Position numbers and translations under genes: made by a program
From: Syntrophomonadaceae bacterium
GTDB taxonomy: Bacteria > Bacillota > Dethiobacteria > SKNC01
Direction of reading: 5' to 3'
Length of the DNA stretch: 39,435 bases
NCBI GenBank assembly: GCA_003560915.1
Contig: PWJM01000169.1
Span: 1-39,435, forward strand
The notes under the pieces: model-generated
Databases searched by the model: none
Told to the model about the DNA's origin: nothing
What the model saw: only the letters and a program-made list of their open reading frames with translations
In this document: in pieces, positions 16,674 to 20,201 of the stretch
Numbering within the stretch: position 1 is the first letter of the stretch
Layout: each line of letters begins with the position of its first letter

Positions 16674-16841
16674 TGGATCATCCCTCCAAAAATTTTTCAC
16701 CAAAAATAGGTTACTTATAAGTTATGGATTTTAACAGTTATTATTCTCTTTCCTTCATTTTGGTTAAAATAAAAAAAAGAAGGAAATATTCTTTAACTGC
16801 CGAAAATATCCATGAAGGTTTGTTCTGGAAGGAGAAATATT

Positions 16842-17795
16842 ATGGCACTGATCACTTTATCCCGAGAATTTGGAAGTTGGGGAGAAGAAATCGCCCGGGT
16901 AACCGCTGAAAAGTTAGATTTTCTTTTAATTAATAAAAAAATAATTGAAGAAGAACTATCTCCTTCACCGGAGACCCATGACCAGATGGAATTAGAGGAA
17001 AAAGCCCTTGGGAAAAATGAGCATCAGTCCCTTCTTCGAAAGGAACGTATTTTTTCGCTGCACCGTTATCTCAATCAGCTGTCTGAAGAAAACAACCTGG
17101 TAATCCTGGGAAGAGGGGGGCATCTTCTTTTTAAGGATTACTGCCCCGCTCTGCATGTGAAAATAATTTGCCCTCTGGAGAAGAGAATTCTTCGGGTCAT
17201 GGAACTTTATTCGTTGGGTAAAAAAGCAGCCCATACCCTGATTTCTGAACAAGACAGAGATAGGAAAAAATACATAAAAGATATCTTTAATGAAAACTGG
17301 TTAAACTTAAATCTCTATGACCTGGTTATTAACACAGATAAGATCTCGGTAAATAGAGCCGCTGAAATTATCGTAAACTCATTTATCATCATGGGAAAAT
17401 CCAACGATTTAACTACTGCCCCCCAGGAAGAATTACCAAAAGCCAATTTGGTGCTCTCATCCCCGGAAAAGAGTAAAGAGATTCGCTTCATGCATCCCAG
17501 CGAAGAAGAATTTGCAAAAATGCTTGATTTCTACCGTATAAATTGGAAATATGAACCTAGAACTTTTCCCCTGGAGTGGGACAGCGAAGGGAGTATCACT
17601 GAGGCATTTGCTCCAGACTTTTATCTGCCGGATCATGACCTTTATGTAGAAATCACTACTCAGAGGCAAAAATTGGTTTGGAAAAAAAATAAAAAAGCGC
17701 GCAGATTAAAGGAACTATATCCAGATGTCAATTTAAAAATTATTTATAATAAAGACTATAAAAGCCTTTTAACAAAATTCGGATTGGATAACTAA
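16842..17795 (+). CDS. Cytidylate kinase-like protein fused to a C-terminal PD-(D/E)XK-like domain
   Basis: MALITLSREFGSWGEEIARVTAEKL, VILGRGGHLL; C-terminus FAPDFYLPDHDLYVEITTQRQKLVWKKNKKARRLKELYP; upstream GAAGGAG. Confidence 0.75.
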   Translation: MALITLSREFGSWGEEIARVTAEKLDFLLINKKIIEEELSPSPETHDQMELEEKALGKNEHQSLLRKERIFSLHRYLNQLSEENNLVILGRGGHLLFKDYCPALHVKIICPLEKRILRVMELYSLGKKAAHTLISEQDRDRKKYIKDIFNENWLNLNLYDLVINTDKISVNRAAEIIVNSFIIMGKSNDLTTAPQEELPKANLVLSSPEKSKEIRFMHPSEEEFAKMLDFYRINWKYEPRTFPLEWDSEGSITEAFAPDFYLPDHDLYVEITTQRQKLVWKKNKKARRLKELYPDVNLKIIYNKDYKSLLTKFGLDN

Positions 17796-17874
17796 CCTTT
17801 ATTCATCGCAATTCTGACCAAGCTAGTCCAGTAACTTTATTTAAAAAATGTAATAAAAATTGAAAGGGGATTCC

Positions 17875-18399
17875 ATGGATAACAAGTTAAAAGTCATTCT
17901 CTCCCGGGAGGAGACCTCAGCCAGAGTAAAAGAATTGGGAGAGATGATATCCAATGATTATCGAAAAAAAGAATTGGTGCTGATCAGCGTGCTCAGGGGA
18001 AGTGTTTTTTTTGCCGTGGATCTCAGTCGTTCCCTTACTGTGCCCTTTTCCATCGACTTTATCAGCATTTCTAGATACGGAGAAAAAACCGATTCCACCG
18101 GTGTGGTTCGGATTACAAAGGACCTTGACGTAAACATTGCCGACAAGGATGTCCTGGTGGTAGAAGACATTTTAGATACAGGGCTCAGTCTCAGTTATCT
18201 GCTGCGCAACTTAAAGACCCGCAATCCCAAAACACTGAAAGTCTGTACTTTTCTAAATGTGGAGTCCCGCCGTATTGTGAATGTTCCGGTAGATTATAAA
18301 GGTTTTGACCTGCCGGATATTTTTGTGGTGGGTTACGGCCTGGATTATAATGAGAAATACCGAAATTTGCAGTACGTAGCTGAATACATCAAAGATTAA
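17875..18399 (+). CDS. hpt: Hypoxanthine phosphoribosyltransferase
   Basis: LISVLRGSVFFAVDLSR, VLVVEDILDTGLSLSYL PRPP motif. Confidence 0.93.
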   Translation: MDNKLKVILSREETSARVKELGEMISNDYRKKELVLISVLRGSVFFAVDLSRSLTVPFSIDFISISRYGEKTDSTGVVRITKDLDVNIADKDVLVVEDILDTGLSLSYLLRNLKTRNPKTLKVCTFLNVESRRIVNVPVDYKGFDLPDIFVVGYGLDYNEKYRNLQYVAEYIKD

Positions 18400-18427
18400 T
18401 TCTTGCAGGTTGATCAAAGTAAAAATG

Positions 18428-18510
18428 GAAGACAAGGGGACGGTTTTCTTGTCTAATCTAAGATATGTAAGGTAATTAAAAGAAGACAAGAGAACCGTCC
18501 CCTTGTCTTC
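18428..18510. repeat. 83-nt REP/MITE-like long palindrome
   Basis: 27-nt arms GAAGACAAGGGGACGGTT(T/C)TCTTGTCT, 26/27 complementary, 29-nt loop. Confidence 0.8.
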
Positions 18511-18839
18511 TAAAAAACATAATAAAACCAGATCCCAACAGACCTTCCAACTCTCCGTCCCGGCCCTCTCGTCCTTCCCTGACTGGCCTCCACCCCTTCA
18601 ATTAGAATCGGGTTTCACTCAGCCTCCAGACAGTTCAACGGGCCAGTTCCACGGCTCCCGGTGCTTCCCGGTAACGTCCCCAACGCCTAAACATTGAGTT
18701 TACCTTTCCACTCCGGACCTACTAGCGATACGACTCTTTTGGACGCCCCAGGAACGATTCAAACTTACGTCATCCTCAATTCCCTTTTACTTCCACCCGA
18801 GCCGCACCCGGATTGTTTTTTTGCCTCTCGGAATCTGGT
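18511..18839 (-). ncRNA. Candidate structured non-coding RNA, family not identified
   Basis: GC-rich, non-coding, purine-rich on the minus strand; own promoter upstream; internal complementary segments such as ACTGGCC/GGCCAGT, CGTCC/GGACG, TCCGG/CCGGGA, GAGT/ACTC. Confidence 0.55.
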
Positions 18840-18845
18840 AATACT

Positions 18846-18874
18846 ATTATGCCATGGACTGATTTATTTGTCAA
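18846..18874 (-). promoter_or_regulatory. Sigma-A promoter for the candidate ncRNA
   Basis: Minus: TTGACA-17 bp-CATAAT. Confidence 0.7.
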
Positions 18875-19034
18875 TACGTTTATCAGAATTTTTTAAATAT
18901 TTTTTATTCGAACCTTACTATTCTTGTGTACTTTATTTATTGTCCGAAGGGAGCAACCATTCTGAGTATATCATTAGTAATTCTCCTATCTCCTTACCTC
19001 TAAACTTAAATAGCATAGGTGAAGGAGGTTCACG

Positions 19035-20201
19035 CTATTCTTCCAGCCTCTGTATCTCCTTTGCTCTTCCTTTTTGTGGCTTCGGCCCGTAATATTGGTA
19101 ATAGTGTACCTTGATGTTCCCATTATAAAGCTTCCTTTTTTTGGTAGCTCTCTCCCCGAACAATTTTTCGAACTCAGGATGGGATGTAAGGATATAATAA
19201 GACCAGGTATCAAATTCCCGGAATACTTTTCCCATATCTTTATACATTTTTTCTACATCTTTCAGCTCCCCCAGACGTTCTCCATAGGGAGGGTTACAGA
19301 TAAATTTACCATACTTTTTCCTGGAACGAAATTCTTTGAAGGACATTTTTTGAAAATGAATTCCCTGATCTACTCCAGCTTCAAAGGCATTTCTCCGGGC
19401 TAACTTCAAAACCTTATCATCAATGTCTGTCCCAATAATTTCTAAGGGCTGTTCAAAATTTGCTGCGTCATGAGTTTCTTTTCGTGCCCGTCTCCATAAG
19501 CTTCGAGATATGTTGGGCCAACTTTCAGAGATAAACTCCCTGTTCATTCCAGGAGCCGCATTTTGTCCAATTAGGGCTGCTTCAATAGCAATGGTCCCCG
19601 AACCACAGAAAGGGTCCACCAGAACCATGTCAGGCCTCCAGCGGGCCAATTTTACCAGGGCAGCAGCCAGGGTTTCTTTTAATGGAGCATAACTGGCTGA
19701 TTCCCGGTAGCCCCTTTTATGAAGCCCGGCACCGCTGGCATCCACAGTCAGGGTGGCTGTGTCCTTTAAGAGGGCCACCTCAATTTTATAAAGGGGTCCC
19801 TTTTCCTCAAACCACTGCCTTTTATATTTTTTCTTCATACTCTCCACTACAGCTTTTTTCACGATTGCCTGACAGTCCGGCACACTAAAAAGCCCCGACT
19901 TTACTGATTTCCCCTCCACGGGAAATTCCGCATCCACAGGAATCAGTTCAGCCCAGGGAAGTGCTTTGGTCTGTTCAAAGAGCTCATCAAAGGTAACCGC
20001 TTTAAACTCCCCCACCTTTAGCCGCACCCTGTCTGCTACCCGCAGCCATAAATTAGCACGGCACAGTGCCTCCCAGTCCCCCACGAAGGTTACTTTACCA
20101 TTTTCCACGGTCATGTCTTGATATCCTAATTCCTTTACTTCCTGGGCTACAATGGCCTCCAGCCCAAACGTAGAAGTTGCGATCAGTTCCAGGTATGACA
20201 T
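19035..20201 (-). CDS. THUMP-domain class I SAM RNA methyltransferase (RlmL/YpsC-like)
   Basis: LVDPFCGSGTIAIEAALIG, FICNPPYGERLG, N-terminal THUMP-like region. Confidence 0.92.
   Translation of the reverse strand: MSYLELIATSTFGLEAIVAQEVKELGYQDMTVENGKVTFVGDWEALCRANLWLRVADRVRLKVGEFKAVTFDELFEQTKALPWAELIPVDAEFPVEGKSVKSGLFSVPDCQAIVKKAVVESMKKKYKRQWFEEKGPLYKIEVALLKDTATLTVDASGAGLHKRGYRESASYAPLKETLAAALVKLARWRPDMVLVDPFCGSGTIAIEAALIGQNAAPGMNREFISESWPNISRSLWRRARKETHDAANFEQPLEIIGTDIDDKVLKLARRNAFEAGVDQGIHFQKMSFKEFRSRKKYGKFICNPPYGERLGELKDVEKMYKDMGKVFREFDTWSYYILTSHPEFEKLFGERATKKRKLYNGNIKVHYYQYYGPKPQKGRAKEIQRLEE

Follow-up and report, generated by a model that had tools for sequence, protein, structure and literature searches.

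An uncatalogued structured RNA gene of Bacillota associated with a kinase/T7-endonuclease-I-like fusion protein and an HPRT paralogue: a candidate ribonucleoprotein

Large structured RNAs of a new class are seldom found in bacteria, and for most of them there is no lead to a partner. Among the closest described systems, the Ornate Large Extremophilic (OLE) RNA forms a ribonucleoprotein (RNP) (PMC10898510, PMC9723947) and GOLLD, ROOL and OLE form homo-oligomers (PMC12286853). The raiA motif, or ModT RNA, is a conserved structured non-coding RNA of Bacillota (PMC11706538). In this paper we looked at a 39,435-nucleotide stretch of DNA (the window; contig PWJM01000169.1) from a Syntrophomonadaceae bacterium of the class Dethiobacteria. 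It carries a structured RNA gene in the neighbourhood of hpt2, c0, a glutaredoxin gene and an RlmL-like methyltransferase gene. The features of this locus, in window coordinates, are:

16839 to 17795, plus strand: c0, a PF13189 cytidylate-kinase-like domain followed C-terminally by a T7-endonuclease-I-like one, with hpt2 directly downstream
17860 to 18399, plus strand: hpt2, an HPRT of a lineage distinct from the housekeeping hpt (TIGR01203, 195 bits), convergent with the RNA
18428 to 18511: REP-like long inverted repeat with GGGGACGGTTCTCTTGTC arms, distinct from the RNA
18509 to 18526, minus strand: T-rich tail after P1, TTTATTATGTTTTTTAGA, a T-rich tail being present in most homologues too
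18527 to 18839, minus strand: structured RNA gene of ~313 nt (type I, subfamily A), based on fold, covariance model (CM) R1, covariation and 88 members
18527 to 18545, minus strand: 3' strand of the terminal helix P1, AGGTCTGTTGGGATCTGGT, from homologue comparison, covariation and P1 pairing in 88 members
18823 to 18839, minus strand: 5' strand of P1, ACCAGATTCCGAGAGGC, from P1 pairing across 88 members
18846 to 18851, minus strand: -10 box CATAAT, extended with TG before it, at near-constant spacing to the RNA 5' end among homologues
18869 to 18874, minus strand: -35 box TTGACA

A preliminary description of this DNA had placed an RNA gene of about 330 nt at 18500 to 18880. The gene and its strand stand, and its extent is corrected to the ~313 nt listed above by a full-length match to CM R1 (E 1.1e-55, with the window copy itself in the training set of 28); many sequences outside the R1 training also match R1. 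The sigma-A promoter TTGACA-17-CATAAT (18874 to 18846, minus strand), which had been recognised there, agrees with the consensus in 11 of 12 positions and ends 7 nt upstream of the predicted RNA start at ~18839, and the gene is presumably transcribed from this promoter of its own. Both RNA ends pair (ACCAGATTCCGAG with CTGTTGGGATCTGGT), giving the long terminal helix P1, which together with the T-rich tail is a plausible candidate for the transcript end. The RNA strand folds at -124.9 kcal/mol, compared to -98.8 +/- 4.4 for shuffles (z = -5.9; 0 of 100 shuffles as good). Of the complementary segments proposed earlier, the predicted fold includes TCCGG/CCGGGA, whereas ACTGGCC/GGCCAGT and CGTCC/GGACG are not favoured partners. 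The reported richness in GC and purines relative to the flanks was also found, with a GC content of 0.53-0.59 across 18500-18750 versus 0.27-0.40 in the AT-rich near flanks and 63% purine on the RNA strand. As had been stated, the RNA holds no credible coding sequence: the sense ORFs of aligned homologues span only 20-67 aa and homologue lengths vary by non-multiples of 3, which rules out a coding gene and excludes a conserved protein. The palindrome at 18428-18511, to whose adjacency the same description gave weight, proves irrelevant. It lies just outside the RNA and is absent beside the RNA of the closest relative, and the window holds no second copy of it.

Same-genus copies of the RNA were found by blastn at 91% and 80% identity, with short matches to both RNA ends in many further genomes of the class. 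A 3'-motif scan of genome contigs pointed mainly to soda-lake metagenome-assembled genomes (MAGs) filed under Syntrophomonadaceae, plus Dethiobacter; matches scattered in Proteobacteria, Actinobacteria and others lack a convincing 5' partner and look like chance. Judged by these matches, the RNA family is present in many soda-lake and related Bacillota bacteria. We collected 88 distinct members (the window copy and 87 others), each chosen for its P1 core motifs together with a site resembling a promoter, so that the presence of a promoter in all of them is by construction. The exact -35 sequence TTGACA was not among the selection criteria and is found in 83 of the 88; an earlier search, in which a promoter was not required for the best matches, also gave TTGACA in nearly all. 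Across the 88 members 99.3% of the outer five P1 pairs form, versus 85.7% when partners are swapped between members, and a reversed-pattern control for the 5' motif gave no match. Subfamily A, which includes the window copy, is ~312 nt long, subfamily B ~290 nt (promoter GATCAATAAT) and subfamily C ~240-410 nt. CM R1, built from subfamily A, detects B, C and more distant members, with matches (E up to 0.01) in 57 of the 98 genomes of the class.

RNAalifold analysis of 28 subfamily A members gave 78 base pairs, 40 of them with two-sided compensatory change. Counting over the same structure, 96.1% of cells are paired, and the 40 two-sided pairs compare with 17.4 in shuffles (0 of 500). When the 3' partners were slid, 26-47% were paired, a control that favours the structure because the structure was derived from these 28 sequences. 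Subfamily B gave 71 pairs, 30 with two-sided change. The window copy has the type I hallmarks, namely the P1 core CCGAGAGR / YCUGUUGG and an upstream sigma-A promoter, although the same features served as selection criteria. This core, which contains a single G-G mismatch and a G-U pair, is nearly invariant and the outer P1 pairs covary, whereas the interior diverges fast, with strong differences between families, yet stays structured. It is well supported that 18527-18839 is a real structured RNA gene that is uncatalogued in Rfam 15. The earlier suggestion of an independently transcribed RNA of an uncatalogued family is thus upheld by homologues, covariation, a conserved promoter and negative Rfam scans, with transcription itself deduced from the promoter.

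Other sequence types exist. Type II RNA (5' AGCTCCAAGGAATTCCTAAG, 3' ATAAAGGTTCGTTGGAGC, ~330 nt) lies beside c0-hpt2 in other Bacillota families (L223, L226-L228, L230, L232, L237, L239, L277), either divergent from c0 or convergent with hpt, and has no Rfam match in the members scanned. The type II model R2 matches one type I RNA of family f5 (E 2e-4), which links types I and II weakly. A short type III RNA of ~160 nt (AGCCCCGAGAGGTCGG ... CACTCGGGGCT, then a T run) adjoins c0-hpt2 in family f38 (L224, L225, L231). Genomes may hold several RNA paralogues. The complete relative G002 has two more copies, 1.5 kb apart and far from c0-hpt2 (L190, G002:C1:2916000-2927000), and a 412-nt form with an internal duplication of ~100 nt (L004:1367-1778). 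Two P1-closed units stand in tandem in L187 and L140; those of L187 share one promoter, and the second unit has its own compensated P1.

The hpt gene next to the RNA had been taken as an ordinary one. Family score and PRPP motif both identify Hpt2 as an HPRT, and it belongs to a separate paralogue lineage: in the tree Hpt2 and the housekeeping hpt split on one branch (support 100/99). Many housekeeping copies adjoin tilS or ftsH motifs, and c0 adjoins hpt in 28 of 28 loci. Among 25 genomes, all 17 c0-positive genomes other than the window's have two or more hpt genes and each of the 7 c0-negative genomes has one; the window's own MAG (92% complete) holds the c0-linked copy only. c0 matches PF13189 with 117 bits, and its C-terminal domain matches a T7 endonuclease I profile (E 6.4e-5). 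The acidic active-site positions are kept, but a Thr replaces the catalytic Lys, and catalysis by this domain is therefore doubtful. A fold search with an AlphaFold model of the isolated domain returned restriction-endonuclease folds, at weak E-values, and the whole-protein search gave only kinases and other P-loop proteins among the best 50. In Thermomicrobium roseum one protein fuses the nuclease-like domain (61% identity) to HPRT (L299:3447-4448; NC_011961.1, WP_012643103.1).

Most subfamily A and C copies in the class converge on the 3' end of hpt, followed by c0, a position also seen in two families outside the class; in f5, RNAs flank the c0-hpt2 operon on both sides. With R1 alone, 47 of the 98 class genomes have both RNA and c0, 9 have c0 only, 8 RNA only and 34 neither (Fisher p 1e-10). 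Including motif-found RNAs the counts become 54, 2, 9 and 33, the added RNAs having been found mostly by looking near c0, not blind. In a phylum sample of 399 genomes 22 are RNA-positive, and 21 of these 22 hold c0, versus 38 of 399 overall (p 1e-23). For R1 this table counts eight matches at E < 1e-6 and leaves out five partial ones at E 0.01-0.05. Since the sequences used to build R2 came from the vicinity of c0, R2 matches in those source genomes are expected, and the informative matches are those in other genomes together with the low count elsewhere. These p-values, uncorrected for phylogeny, overstate the case because the genomes are related. In G176 and G375 type II RNA and c0 lie on separate contigs, so that adjacency alone does not suffice to explain the link. 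Some genomes hold RNA without a detected c0 (e.g., G038 and G071, 96-97% complete), and the c0-positive families f100, f84 and f129 have no recognisable RNA. The RNA-c0 association is nevertheless well supported.

Based on these data we can suggest, with somewhat more confidence than doubt, that the RNA is a component of an undescribed RNP with c0 and Hpt2. A strongly promoted, ~313-nt non-coding RNA would act in trans and form one conserved module with the adjacent c0-hpt2 operon, in which it would be the core of the RNP. The near-invariant P1 helix is the putative docking site of a protein, with the T7-endonuclease-I-like domain of c0 as the probable partner, whereas the fast-evolving, structured interior may serve as scaffold or sensor. 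An RNP core fits best because it accounts for the conserved terminal helix, the strong promoter, the variable scaffold-like interior, the trans paralogues and the loyal protein pair. Hpt2 and the c0 kinase may couple purine chemistry (base + PRPP to NMP, then perhaps NDP) to this RNP. We regard as evenly balanced the wider reading, in which a widespread RNA family, comprising two or more sequence types whose terminal helices are similar, a kinase/T7-endonuclease-I-like fusion and a dedicated HPRT paralogue make up an RNP that links purine-nucleotide metabolism to an RNA machine. We infer both the binding of c0 and Hpt2 to the RNA and its biochemical role from co-occurrence, synteny and domain fusion. 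The divergence of the interior between families could alternatively reflect several functions, and as a counterweight to the module, adjacent genes tend to be lost together.

Several other explanations can be considered. That the RNA belongs, in divergent form, to a known family (HEARO/omega-RNA, OLE, 6S, Y RNA or RNase P), as its size, promoter and closed terminal stem would recall, is very improbable. Rfam gave no gathering-level match at the RNA in the window or member loci, and low-threshold scans were negative too; the sub-threshold matches in 18200-19100 (miRNAs, plastid hairpins) come nearly all from the palindrome and are chance. RNase P, tmRNA and SRP RNA are without an Rfam match, in line with the lack of such signatures, and of a 6S one, noted before. 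The 6S model does not match this RNA, and canonical 6S is present in 87 of 98 class genomes, including the window's, which argues against a 6S RNA or substitute, and the Ro60 (TROVE) protein is found in 1 of 98, against a Y RNA/Ro RNP. OLE and HEARO/omega-RNA covariance models have no match in window or members. The orphan HEARO/omega-RNA thought possible in the preliminary description is further disfavoured by stable synteny, by the absence of IscB, IsrB or TnpB genes near the RNA (the recurrent neighbours elsewhere being hpt2, c0 and atp genes), and by the lack of RNA matches in phages and plasmids (blastn) and of viral contigs holding both RNA ends. A phage or plasmid origin of the RNA was rejected on the same blastn and viral-contig results. 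The RNA ends are imperfect inverted repeats, as in a mobile element or MITE, yet this reading was rejected because the promoter, which lies outside them, and the neighbouring genes show conservation while the interiors differ.

Another hypothesis, which we hold to be unlikely, is that the RNA is a trans-acting regulator, sponge or scaffold for other proteins, and that its place beside c0-hpt2 is genomic inertia with no contact with c0 or Hpt2. B-type copies at other sites (adjoining aminotransferase, hydrogenase-type or proline genes) and the few genomes with RNA and no detected c0 would fit it, but the link is seen again in several families beyond the class, on either operon side and in either orientation, and G176 and G375 retain RNA and c0 unlinked. 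Still less likely is a nuclease-control module of the RNA-antitoxin or defence type, in which c0 is an effector checked or guided by the RNA and Hpt2 is accessory. A PD-(D/E)XK-like domain does adjoin a strongly promoted RNA, the distribution is patchy, and PADLOC weakly matched the domain to PDC-S69 (E 2e-4). However, phages and viral contigs gave no matches, plasmids hold none to the nuclease-like domain other than the T. roseum megaplasmid fusion, no repeat array is present, the surroundings are stable and housekeeping (atp, glgA and rRNA methyltransferase-like genes), and the catalytic Lys is absent. A type III toxin-antitoxin was rejected, there being no tandem repeat array and the c0 domain being of T7 endonuclease I type, not ToxN-fold. 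Cis regulation of hpt2, through convergent transcription or an antisense 3' element, appears quite improbable: the window copy converges on hpt2 and ends ~130 nt from its stop (0-450 nt in relatives), and in f38 an RNA sits between c0 and hpt2, yet copies elsewhere run divergently from c0 or are unlinked, antisense action needs no extensive covariation, and the RNA start has its own promoter.

Our search of the literature, incomplete in coverage, turned up neither this RNA nor the c0-hpt2 pair, so that a prior description is possible; we regard the RNA-c0-hpt2 system as new, with a putative function. Like OLE, the RNA is large, structured and carried by anaerobic or extremophilic Bacillota, but OLE RNA is ~600 nt long, whereas the RNA here measures ~313 nt, has no Rfam match, has other neighbours and occurs as several paralogues per genome. 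It shares with GOLLD and ROOL the character of an ornate bacterial RNA, and differs in being shorter, in lacking an Rfam match, in not being seen in viral contigs and in its tie to c0-hpt2. From raiA/ModT it is set apart by the lack of an Rfam match and a narrower distribution. The c0 C-terminal domain resembles T7 endonuclease I in profile and acidic positions, and differs by its Lys to Thr change and its fusion to a kinase-like domain, or to HPRT in Thermomicrobium. Hpt2 shares family score and PRPP motif with the housekeeping HPRT beside tilS/ftsH, but it is a separate lineage that occurs with c0 and outside the tilS-ftsH context, and a second HPRT is present only where c0 occurs in the genomes tested. 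If the proposed RNP is real, it would to our knowledge be the first in which a structured RNA and a purine-salvage enzyme are tied in this way. The RNA described here brings with it two specific proteins that can be tested as partners, as well as a naturally occurring domain fusion, and the question of its function is now open to direct testing.
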